Below are positions 1-38,871 of a stretch of 64,000 nucleotides of DNA, one piece after another. Source of the stretch: Corallococcus sp. EGB (lineage in GTDB: Bacteria; Myxococcota; Myxococcia; Myxococcales; Myxococcaceae); contig NZ_CP079946.1 in assembly GCF_019968905.1 (NCBI RefSeq), positions 5,146,001 through 5,210,000 of the forward strand, in the 5' to 3' direction. The notes under the pieces were generated by a model, which had not been told where the DNA came from, did not search any database, and was given only the letters and a program-made list of their open reading frames with translations. Each line of letters starts with the position of its first letter. Position 1 is the stretch's first letter. The translations under genes were made by a program, and so were the position numbers.

Positions 1-590
1 ACATCTACGGCGACATCCTGAAGTCGAAGAAGTCGTCGCTGTGGCGCACGTGCATGATCGTCCAGGAGATCGAAGACGAGATCACGTACACGGACGCGCG
101 GCGCGAGGAGATCACCACGCTGTCCGAGGTGGAGCTGACGCGCGCGCGGCTGGACGACGAGGTGAACCACCGAAAGACGGTGTTGAACGCCCTGGAGCGC
201 AGGCTGGAGCGTGAGCAACTGTCGGAGTCCGAGCGCCACGAGGTGGAGGAGCTGCGCAAGAAGACGAAGGCCGAGCTGGAGAAGCTGCGCCGCTCGTTGA
301 AGGAGACCAACGGCATCGCGGACACGCTGGAGCGCGACGTCGAGGAGGGCTTCAACCCGTACTGGGGCCTGCTGTTCAAGGAGGGCAACGAGAACAGCCG
401 CTTCGGCTACCAGGTGGAGCAGTACGCGTGTCTCTACACGAGCCGCGTGTCGAACTTCCTGCACCACTCGCCCATGCAGTACTACCGCTCGCCGCGCGAC
501 CTGATGGCGCACGAACAGGCGGGCGCGCTGTCGAGCAAGCTGTCACCGATGGGCAGCGAAGGTCCGCCGCGAGGGTCGGAGAAGGAGTAG
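1..590 (+). CDS. HAD-IG family 5'-nucleotidase, C-terminal part (5' end outside window)
   Basis: The reading frame is open from base 3, upstream of the first ATG at 54, so the gene began before the window. The visible residues start IYGDILKSKKSSLWRT and continue into a charged, coiled-coil-like region of about 70 residues rich in Glu, Arg and Leu. A C-terminal segment follows with NPYWGLLFKEG, SRFGYQVEQYACLYTSR and MQYYRSPRDLMAHE. These stretches match the C-terminal half of the cytosolic purine 5'-nucleotidase-like HAD family (Pfam 5_nucleotid), which removes phosphate from IMP or GMP. The catalytic DxDxT end lies outside the window, so activity cannot be judged. The gene converges on the next with a 1-base gap. 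Confidence 0.8.
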   Translation, partial: IYGDILKSKKSSLWRTCMIVQEIEDEITYTDARREEITTLSEVELTRARLDDEVNHRKTVLNALERRLEREQLSESERHEVEELRKKTKAELEKLRRSLKETNGIADTLERDVEEGFNPYWGLLFKEGNENSRFGYQVEQYACLYTSRVSNFLHHSPMQYYRSPRDLMAHEQAGALSSKLSPMGSEGPPRGSEKE

Positions 591-37053: not shown

Positions 37054-37392
37054 TCAGTTCTCATCCGCGACGAGCACGGTCTTCAGCCGCTCCAGCACGG
37101 CTTCCGGCATGTCGATGAAGGACAGGCCCACCTCGTAGCGGGCCACGCCCCCCTTGGGCAACGTGACGACCCAGACGATGCGCGCGGTGCACTCCAGCGA
37201 GCTGCCGTCCGGGAGGAACAGCTCCAGGTCCAGGCGCGAGCCCACGTCCTGCAAGTCGTCGGAGTAGATGCGCGCGCCCCCAAGGCTGACGTCGAGCACC
37301 TGCTTCTTGTCGCCTAGCTTCATCCGCGCGGGGCGCGAGTAGAGGGGCGCGTGGATGCGCGGGAACGCGCGGCGATCAATGGGAGAGGTCAT
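37054..37392 (-). CDS. PilZ-domain protein
   Basis: Protein of 112 residues. Single PilZ domain with the cyclic di-GMP-binding RRAFPRI arm (RxxxR) and DVSLGGARI (D/NxSxxG), followed by VGSRLDLELFLPDGSSLE and a C-terminal helix PEAVLERLKTVLVADE. Both binding motifs are intact, so it is expected to bind c-di-GMP. ATG 37392 is chosen because it begins close to the arm; a GTG at 37404 adds four residues. It is transcribed alone between the aldo/keto reductase gene and the heme-oxygenase-like gene. Confidence 0.9.
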   Translation of the reverse strand: MTSPIDRRAFPRIHAPLYSRPARMKLGDKKQVLDVSLGGARIYSDDLQDVGSRLDLELFLPDGSSLECTARIVWVVTLPKGGVARYEVGLSFIDMPEAVLERLKTVLVADEN

Positions 37393-37508: not shown

Positions 37509-38297
37509 CTACCTGGCATGACCGCCCCGGCCGTCGAGCTCCGGCGCATCCCGCGCCAGCTCGTCGCAGATGAGCGCCTGGATGCGGAAGGCCAGCCGCG
37601 CCTCCTGGACCAGCTCCTGCGCTTCGCCTTCCGTCAGCGGCACCTCGTCCAGGCGAGAGACCAGGCGGCCCTTGAAGGCGAGCAGCTCTCGCGCGGACAC
37701 CGCGTTGTAGAAGGCCGTGCCCCGGCCGTTCTCCAGCTCGAACGCGCGCGCGACCTGTTCCGAGCGCTGCGGCGCCGTGTACAGGTCCTGCACGCAGCGC
37801 GCGTACGCATGGGCGATGAGCAGGTGCGGAGCCTCCGCCGCCACCTCGCGGATGCGCTCGGCGTGCAGCCGCGTCTCCGCGCAGGCGAAGGGCTTCGTGC
37901 GCGTGTCGCCGCAGAACCAGTCCAGGTCCGCCAGCAGCGCGGCGGCACGCCGCAGCTCCGGCAGTCGCAGCACGCGCGTGACCGGGCTGTCCTCCAGTCC
38001 CGGCAGCACGGACTCCAGCGCCTCGTAGACGGTGTGCAGCTGGCGCAGGTGGTTCACATAGTGGCGCGCCCGCACGAACTGTCCATAGACACCGCCGTTC
38101 CACGAGCCGTGGAAGAGCGCCTCCAGGAAGGTGGTCTGCTCCGACTGGCGCCGCGCCATCCCCGTCCCCTCCTCCAGCCGCAGCGACAGCCGCTGCGCGG
38201 ACGGAAGGCCCACGAGCGCCGTGGAGGCCGAGGGAAGGCGGCGGTCCCTCGCGGAGCGCTCGAAGCCGCCCCAGCGGATCGTCCCCCGGACGCTCAC
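37509..38297 (-). CDS. heme-oxygenase-fold protein lacking the usual heme ligand
   Basis: Protein of 262 residues from a GTG overlapping the stop of the small Cys-rich gene (GTGA). The all-helical heme oxygenase pattern is seen in SLRLEEGTGMARRQSEQTTF, ARHYVNHLRQLHTVYEALE, APHLLIAHAYARCVQDLY and GRGTAFYNAV. In true heme oxygenases the proximal His falls in EAHxxxE; here the equivalent residue is Arg49 in MARRQSE. The distal glycine-rich GDLSGG segment reads QDLYTAPQ. It may therefore bind heme differently, bind another tetrapyrrole, or be a scaffold. A Fur-box-like site lies upstream of the operon. Confidence 0.7.
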   Translation of the reverse strand: MSVRGTIRWGGFERSARDRRLPSASTALVGLPSAQRLSLRLEEGTGMARRQSEQTTFLEALFHGSWNGGVYGQFVRARHYVNHLRQLHTVYEALESVLPGLEDSPVTRVLRLPELRRAAALLADLDWFCGDTRTKPFACAETRLHAERIREVAAEAPHLLIAHAYARCVQDLYTAPQRSEQVARAFELENGRGTAFYNAVSARELLAFKGRLVSRLDEVPLTEGEAQELVQEARLAFRIQALICDELARDAPELDGRGGHAR

Positions 38298-38545
38298 TGC
38301 TTCCACCCGCCGGTGGGCGCCGCGTGGGCGACGATGGGGGCCGGCTCCTGCGCCTCGGCTTCGTGCGACGCCTGCAACTGGTGGATGGCCTCCATCAAGG
38401 TGTGGCCCAACGCGCGCAGCACGTCCTCCTCCAGGCGGAGCGTCACCGGCCCCACCGCCAGGTGGATATGCCCACAGCTGCACCGGGTCACCTCCGCGCA
38501 CGGACCCCGCGCCAGCACCGCCCTGCAGCATCCCTGACCGAGCAT
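38294..38545 (-). CDS. small Cys/His-rich protein coupled to the heme-oxygenase-like gene
   Basis: Protein of 83 residues from ATG 38545, with GGAG six bases upstream. The first 30 residues carry Cys6, Cys7, Cys16, Cys22, Cys24, His26 and His28 (TRCSCGHIHLAVGPVTLRLE), a likely metal- or heme-binding cluster. A helix VLRALGHTLMEAIHQLQASH follows, then a Pro/Ala-rich tail. I do not recognise the family. An upstream ATG at 38596 would place the Fur-box-like palindrome inside the gene and is not supported by a ribosome site. It is the first gene of the two-gene unit. Confidence 0.72.
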   Translation of the reverse strand: MLGQGCCRAVLARGPCAEVTRCSCGHIHLAVGPVTLRLEEDVLRALGHTLMEAIHQLQASHEAEAQEPAPIVAHAAPTGGWKQ

Positions 38546-38562
38546 CGCGATCTCCAGATGAT

Positions 38563-38581
38563 TTTGATTATCGAAATCAAA
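38563..38581. promoter_or_regulatory. Fur-box-like palindrome
   Basis: TTTGATT and AATCAAA form perfect 7-bp arms around ATCGA. The centre TGATTATCGAAATCA resembles the 7-1-7 form of Fur boxes. It lies 17 bases before the start of the Cys/His-rich gene, overlapping where its promoter or leader should be. Iron control would fit a heme-handling operon. Confidence 0.5.
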
Positions 38582-38664: not shown

Positions 38665-38731
38665 ACATGAAACATCAGAACAGAGACATACAAAAAAACA
38701 ATCTCAATGGTTGATATTGTTTGTTTCATGT
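38665..38731. repeat. nested inverted repeats in the AT-rich island
   Basis: Outer arms ACATGAAACA (38665-38674) and TGTTTCATGT (38722-38731) are perfect complements. Inside them, 38696-38722 is a second palindrome: AAACAAT, one mismatch, TCAA, a TGG loop, TTGA, one mismatch, ATTGTTT. The two could act as operators or form a large hairpin. Confidence 0.5.
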
Positions 38732-38796
38732 TTCACACAACAGCAGGTATCTGGCTTTTTGTTCATGTAGGCATGGCGGTTCGCGGCCATGCGGGC

Positions 38797-38871
38797 ACTG
38801 GCTGAATGTTTGTTCAGGCCCATTCGGGCGTGTTCGAGACGTCCTGAAAACTGGCTGAATGTTTGTCCAGG
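38797..38871 (+). repeat. 22-bp direct repeat, two copies at a 53-bp spacing
   Basis: Copies at 38797-38818 and 38850-38871 differ at one base and share ACTGGCTGAATGTTTGT. Each contains a CTGAA...TTCAG-type half palindrome. They precede the dehydrogenase-like gene by about 95 bases. They may be regulator sites or copies of a dispersed myxobacterial repeat. Confidence 0.6.

Follow-up and report, generated by a model that had tools for sequence, protein, structure and literature searches.

Plants and malaria parasites are known to have pseudo-heme-oxygenases, whose roles are poorly understood, according to the available part of a report on PfHO of Plasmodium falciparum (PMC11634067). The same part describes PfHO as having lost the proximal His and the distal Gly-Gly of heme oxygenase (HO) while keeping the fold and serving another role (PMC11634067). 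For human HO-2, the available passages state that the H45A variant is inactive, retains weak heme binding and reduces labile heme in cells, and that the variant with Trp for both His45 and Gly159 (H45W/G159W) cannot bind heme (PMC8808069). Excerpts of PMC8131568 describe Pden_1323, an oxygenase of another fold that has no coordinating His, unlike its relatives, and that degrades c-type hemopeptides in which the substrate contributes the His. The H25R variant of human HO-1 is represented by two structures (4wd4 and 5btq), the title of 5btq giving biliverdin as bound, and a literature search found no paper on H25R. A His-less bacterial HO of this fold was not found in the literature either, which is a weak negative as subscription journals were mostly beyond reach.

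Here, we describe a two-gene locus of Corallococcus sp. EGB that encodes a protein of this kind. The window, i.e., the whole stretch of 64,000 nucleotides analysed, carries the pair on its minus strand with the following features:
37509-38297, minus strand: HO-fold protein without the proximal His (the HO-like protein), 262 aa, GTG start, stop included; from the PF01126 match and the AlphaFold2 model
37767-37790, minus strand: QDLYTAPQ, residues 170-177, replacing the distal GDLSGGQ; Asp171, equivalent to HO-1 Asp140, is kept
38151-38153, minus strand: codon of Arg49, the position of the proximal His (HO-1 His25); from pairwise alignments and column counts
38294-38297, minus strand: GTGA stop-start overlap; NTGA in 56 of 56 linked loci
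38294-38545, minus strand: small Cys/His protein, 83 aa, stop included; from the translation, with a predicted beta4-alpha fold
38300-38308, minus strand: Shine-Dalgarno-like GGGTGGAAG within the 3' end of the small gene; strongly conserved across linked genera
38462-38482, minus strand: C22-S-C24-G-H-I-H28 motif of the small protein; from the alignment of 21 members
38560-38578, minus strand: Fur-box-like site GATTTCGATAATCAAAATC; 14 of 19 positions match a Fur consensus

We read the HO-like protein, from its sequence and predicted structure, as a bacterial pseudo-heme-oxygenase that probably lacks HO activity. It resembles PfHO in its HO fold, lost His ligand, replaced distal Gly-Gly and less positive charge around the pocket (PMC11634067, available part), but it is bacterial, lies behind a Fur-like site and is paired with a small Cys/His protein, and the likeness drawn here is one of features. 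Human HO-1 H25R has the identical substitution at the identical place as Arg49, but it is engineered and its remaining active site is that of HO-1. Arabidopsis HO2, for which we know of no small partner, is a plant plastid protein, unlike the bacterial HO-like protein, and here too the comparison concerns features. The Pfam family and the fold are shared with canonical HOs, namely Leptospira 5kzl, HmuO and a second HO encoded in the same genome; these retain the catalytic signature, which the HO-like protein has lost.

Both sequence and fold support the family assignment. The protein matches PF01126 with 96.8 bits over residues 36-239 (cut-off 23), and its AlphaFold2 model (pLDDT 82.9 and pTM 0.79 with 23 sequences as input; residues 1-31 and 252-262 of very low confidence) shows the all-helical HO fold. 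Structural comparison of the model gave Z scores of 26-27 over ~210 residues with HO-1 and HO-2, 26.7 with 2qpp (210 aligned, rmsd 2.0), and 25.9 and 25.8 with the H25R structures 4wd4 and 5btq, respectively; identity to the 5kzl and HmuO chains was 22-30%. The helical heme-oxygenase pattern recognized by the first-pass annotation is therefore borne out by PF01126 and by Z ~26 to HO-1/HO-2. The N-terminal extension (residues 1-31) keeps G5, R8, S15, A16, R17 and R20 in 44-45 of 45 linked-clade rows and is missing in the two Archangium rows of alignment A3. Four Cys residues (Cys129, Cys139, Cys168 and Cys244) are likewise shared by 44-45 of the 45 linked-clade rows (Corallococcus/Myxococcus/Citreicoccus) and not in g7, Archangium-like or canonical rows; from the alignment, a metal or disulfide site is possible.

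The pair is conserved among relatives of Myxococcus. Among 195 genomes, 67 have an HO-like match and 69 a small-protein match. The HO-like type described here is found in 63 of the 67, while the HOs of G017, G146, G148 and G153 (two copies) are canonical, with His and GD..GG. The two genes are adjacent in 56 of the 63 genomes; they are present but apart in six g7 genomes, and G147 has the HO-like gene with no small-protein match. The coordinates, frames and GTGA overlap reported by the first-pass annotation were correct, and the two-gene unit, whose conservation it had left in question, is linked with overlap in 56 of 63 genomes. In the window, the GTG start of the HO-like gene overlaps the TGA stop of the small gene, and the overlap is in frame at all 56 linked loci (GTGA in 49, ATGA in 7). 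Linked genera share a strongly conserved small-gene end, GGGTGGAAGCAGTGA, which unlinked loci lack; this fits a Shine-Dalgarno sequence and overlap that would serve the HO gene. Our search for His-less HOs covered Myxococcota genomes and plasmid records; the latter gave four matches to HO (three annotated as heme oxygenase, one unannotated) and none to the small protein. A record titled 'Comamonas sp. KCTC 72670' (L118, BNCN01000001.1) has a Myxococcus-type pair, and its organism label looks wrong. The available passages of two iron studies of M. xanthus (PMC9738627, PMC3986340) do not name the pair.

The proximal position of the HO-like protein has drifted. Residues 47-53 read MARRQSE, and phmmer alignment to PDB chains places Arg49, in place of the proximal His, under that of Leptospira HO (5kzl) and Synechocystis HO-1 (1we1) and opposite Arg25 of the H25R mutant 5btq. 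These alignments agree with the earlier reading of MARRQSE at the EAHxxxE position, and they place no other His at the proximal position, an outcome that the annotation had also considered. The structurally aligned ranges (34..253 of the model and 10..223 of the HO-1 chains) likewise appear to agree with 49 opposite 25, if no gap precedes. Over the 63 HO-like proteins, the position holds Arg (30), Ala (11), His (10), Leu (6), Val (4), Thr (1) and Trp (1), with Arg in all genomes of the same genus (16/16), g7 (6/6) and Citreicoccus (2/2). On a quick tree built without this column (22 of 65 inner branches open, no eukaryotic rows), the residue changes at least 14 times, including three switches between His and not-His with the canonical-HO split counted; the branch parting the canonical HOs has a support of only 62, and G017, G147 and G146 have long end branches. 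The earlier emphasis on Arg49 as a specific feature does not hold, as the column varies with at least 14 changes and Arg in 30 of 63. A role of Arg49 as a dedicated new ligand was rejected for the same drift, seen in the column counts and the tree. The ten His-bearing sequences nest within a clade having Arg, Ala, Leu and Val, and from this tree their proximal His appears derived; retention of an ancestral His in Myxococcus was rejected on the same nesting. Pseudo-HOs of the AtHO2/PfHO kind have an HO fold without the proximal His, and the window protein shows both features.

Losses extend to the distal face and to the propionate contacts. Residues are given in HO-1 numbering through phmmer pairwise alignment to PDB chains, and five canonical myxobacterial HOs (L069, L070, L071, L075 and L080), excluded from the 63 rows, served as positive control; the second HO of the same genome (L002) was not matched by the profile and stands outside the alignment. 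His25 is present in 10 of 63 HO-like proteins vs 5/5 canonical ones. The distal GxxxG is absent from the window protein, with Gly139 (to which we take HO-2 Gly159 to correspond) found in 0/63 vs 5/5 and replaced by Gln170, and Gly143 in 12/63 vs 5/5 and replaced by Thr174. QDLYTAPQ occupies residues 170-177 of this turn, as had been noted before. The propionate-binding residues Lys18 and Arg183 are also gone: a basic residue at Lys18 occurs in 9/63 vs 5/5 (Glu42 in the window protein), and Arg183 in 0/62 proteins having a residue there vs 5/5 (Val213 in the window protein). The Lys179 column does not discriminate (basic in 43/63 and in 3/5 canonical HOs; Lys209 in the window protein). Judged by this alignment, the HO-like protein appears to be without the heme grip on both faces and without two of three propionate places.

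Other residues are kept. Thr21 (63/63), Asp140 (56/63; Asp171 in the window protein) and Arg136 (52/63) persist among the HO-like proteins. In a clade of 51 rows (the same genus, Myxococcus/Pyxidicoccus, Citreicoccus and g7), Tyr58, Asp140 and Arg136 are each kept in 51/51 and His takes the place of Tyr114 in 51/51, positions which we take to form the distal network of HO-1. Outside the classic site, Trp66, His79, Arg148, Arg234 and Arg238 are all 51/51, and His79, His145, His158 and His163 are invariant in the clade. Canonical HOs also have His163 (5/5) and His158 (four of five), so neither is a replacement ligand. The His79 column of the Archangium-like rows is invariant in the A3 alignment and variable in the 63-row alignment, and because of this disagreement its invariance is claimed for the 51-row clade only. 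The 11 genomes of the Archangium-like branch have all lost Glu29 and Arg136, and six of them have also lost Asp140; owing to these losses the pocket may matter less there.

Iron regulation of the pair is suggested by conserved upstream sites. Scores are matches to a Fur consensus of 19 positions, GATAATGATAATCATTATC. The site at 38560-38578 scores 14/19, the top of 127,964 window positions on both strands. In the 110 bases that precede the small gene, the top-scoring site reaches 12-17/19 at all 56 linked loci, the window included; for comparison, 519 of 20,000 random 110-base stretches of the same loci, true sites being among the draws, reach 12. In the six unlinked g7 genomes, the HO gene has its own Fur-like site (14-15/19), and the small gene, read in all of them but G097, has one of 15-16/19. 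Distant members of the small-protein family score lower (7-9/19 for L086, L087, L089 and L090; 8-10/19 for L126 and L128-L130). The Fur-box-like site proposed earlier is thus the best in the window, and such sites upstream of the pair are conserved across genera, as would be expected of members of a Fur regulon. We infer that the pair is iron-regulated through these sites and that Fur binds them.

The small protein belongs to a separate and wider family, mostly with a Fur-like site. It contains 11 Cys/His residues (5 Cys and 6 His), 7 of them within residues 6-28; the count of seven given previously is right for that segment and not for the whole protein. C22, C24, G25 and H28 are present in 21/21 aligned members and C6 in 19/21, while the most distant matches do not strictly keep C22/C24 (an extra residue, or loss of C24). 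The predicted structure is beta-beta-beta-beta-alpha (mean pLDDT 82.0, and 94-98 in residues 11-60), and C6 would face C22/C24 in an antiparallel hairpin, making a C-C-C-H metal site of C6, C22, C24 and H28 plausible. The protein was earlier called unfamiliar, and it has no family match in Pfam (best BssS, E 0.1, below the BssS cut-off), no NCBIfam match at E up to 1 and no solved relative by sequence search. Its fold matches are weak (best Foldseek E 0.65, best Z 4.8); Pur-alpha, COMMD, PC4-like and DUF155 were set aside as too weak for use (Z ≤4.8, E ≥0.65), and such weak matches are no evidence for a new fold.

Some relatives of the small protein lie in iron-uptake clusters. Clusters of imelysin and EfeB-like di-heme peroxidase genes have been tied to iron uptake, and in some bacteria Fur controls them, as described in part of PMC3143127. 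Some family members sit in such clusters or beside HmuY heme-uptake genes, with the gene orders imelysin-DHOR-small-HO-like (L081), small-DHOR-imelysin (L091) and TonB receptor-HmuY-small (L090). At L083 (5097-6130), an HmuY gene and the small gene share an ATGA overlap of the kind seen in the pair, and at L089 (4558-5368), a weak distant member (E 5e-4) is followed by a same-strand FUR-family gene (127.5 bits). The window's pair is unlike those clusters, as neither imelysin/EfeB-like nor HmuY genes adjoin it, and inspection by eye found no adjoining iron-uptake gene. No iron-uptake gene was seen among the Pfam-scanned neighbours of L084, L085, L088, L092, L126, L128 and L130, or by eye among those of L129. 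The scan covered chosen genes at chosen loci (30 entries, 29 distinct), with genes called by a crude GC3 method. The earlier proposal of an iron-regulated pair handling heme, bilin or a metal is supported in its iron-related part by the Fur-like site across genera and by the iron/heme context of some small-protein relatives.

The rest of the genome leaves room for another role of the HO-like protein. A second, His-bearing HO (SHHERTE) is encoded at C1:1098335 (L002 1309-2106, plus strand) with no Fur-like site (best 9/19), and a second PF01126 match is present in 53 of the 63 genomes; ordinary HO work thus need not fall to the HO-like protein. The second HO is likely BphO, since BphO adjoins phytochromes in two myxobacteria and Corallococcus coralloides is named in the legend of a gene-organisation figure, as far as the available part of PMC6126659 goes. 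HmuY has two matches in the genome, suggesting that heme uptake is likely present.

Our preferred explanation, to which we give about half of our confidence, is an iron-starvation pair of a non-catalytic tetrapyrrole handler and an iron-regulated partner with a metal site. The two-gene unit would be translationally coupled, repressed by Fur and made under iron starvation. The pseudo-HO would keep the HO fold and some distal polar residues and, because the proximal His, Gly139 and the propionate residue 183 are lost, should not cleave heme the usual way. Most likely it would bind heme, porphyrin or biliverdin without catalysis, as a buffer, a carrier or a sensor that serves heme-iron acquisition. 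The small protein, with its likely C6/C22/C24/H28 site, would serve this iron/heme programme as well, perhaps bound to the pseudo-HO. HO-2 H45A, the biliverdin of 5btq and PfHO are the precedents for which we favour this explanation. Against it, the distal residues still present could point to remaining oxygen chemistry; a heme binder should retain some propionate contacts, which appear largely lost; ten of the 63 members have the proximal His and dN/dS reaches 0.54-0.66 against other genera; and several small-family loci, like the pair itself, have no iron-uptake neighbour. The possibility of a repurposed scaffold or regulator, in which the HO fold no longer binds tetrapyrroles and makes protein or nucleic-acid contacts in iron homeostasis, is real but doubtful. 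Proximal, distal and propionate sites are all degraded, as in PfHO, which works in the malaria apicoplast outside heme degradation (PMC11634067, available part), and the clade has new residues outside the classic site (Trp66, His79, Arg148, Arg234, Arg238), four Cys and conserved N-terminal residues. However, a pure scaffold would not need Tyr58, Arg136 and Asp140, kept in 51/51, and some small-family neighbours point to heme and iron uptake.

Catalysis by other means was weighed as well. An active non-canonical HO whose iron ligand comes from outside, either from the small protein or from a substrate such as c-type hemopeptides with their own His, seems unlikely to us, although Asp140, Arg136 and Tyr58 are kept and the gene is tightly coupled to that of a Cys/His protein in 56 of 63 genomes. 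These bacteria digest prey cells, a source of cytochrome c, which also speaks for such a substrate, and Pden_1323 offers a precedent in another fold (PMC8131568, excerpts). However, Gly139 is replaced in 63/63, HO-2 with Trp at His45 and Gly159 cannot bind heme (PMC8808069, available passages), the genes are unlinked in six genomes and G147 has no small-protein match. The bolder form, a two-part heme-opening enzyme in which the small CxCGxxH protein or a prey-derived c-type hemopeptide ligates the heme iron in trans, we regard as very unlikely. The first-pass annotation had suggested that the small protein supplies the missing ligand, which we do not favour: six genomes carry both genes unlinked, and supplying a ligand would not by itself rebuild a normal site because Gly139 is gone in 63/63 and the basic residue 183 in 62/62. 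An ordinary HO using an alternative His as proximal ligand is highly improbable; the PF01126 score is far above the cut-off and His79, His145, His158 and His163 are invariant in the 51-row clade, but sequence alignment puts Arg49 at the proximal site in agreement with the structural-alignment ranges, and Gly139 and Arg183 are lost. A decaying gene without function is hardly credible. The proximal position drifts and dN/dS of the window HO-like gene is 0.54-0.66 against six Myxococcus, Pyxidicoccus or Citreicoccus relatives, yet it is 0.27-0.43 against nine Corallococcus relatives (15 of the 22 HO relatives of A3 were taken in), and linkage, in-frame overlap and the Fur-like site are kept in 56 genomes; decay was rejected on these grounds.

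The non-catalytic tetrapyrrole handler and its alternatives concern a free-living bacterial clade with a putative pseudo-HO, in which the role of the His-less HO fold would become testable by simple gene deletion. If the ligand were indeed external, the HO fold would catalyse with a ligand that it does not itself provide, and iron starvation would turn this activity on. The analysis also draws attention to an unnamed family of small, iron-associated proteins that probably carry a metal site. Minor features surround the pair in the window. Upstream, three degenerate 15-base direct repeats with a spacing of 51-53 bases lie at 38751-38871, among them two copies of a 22-base core that are 95% alike, and a 10-base inverted repeat has its arms at 38665 and 38722. 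Downstream, a PilZ-domain-like reading frame (RRAFPR...) was recognized by eye at 37054 to ~37395 on the minus strand.
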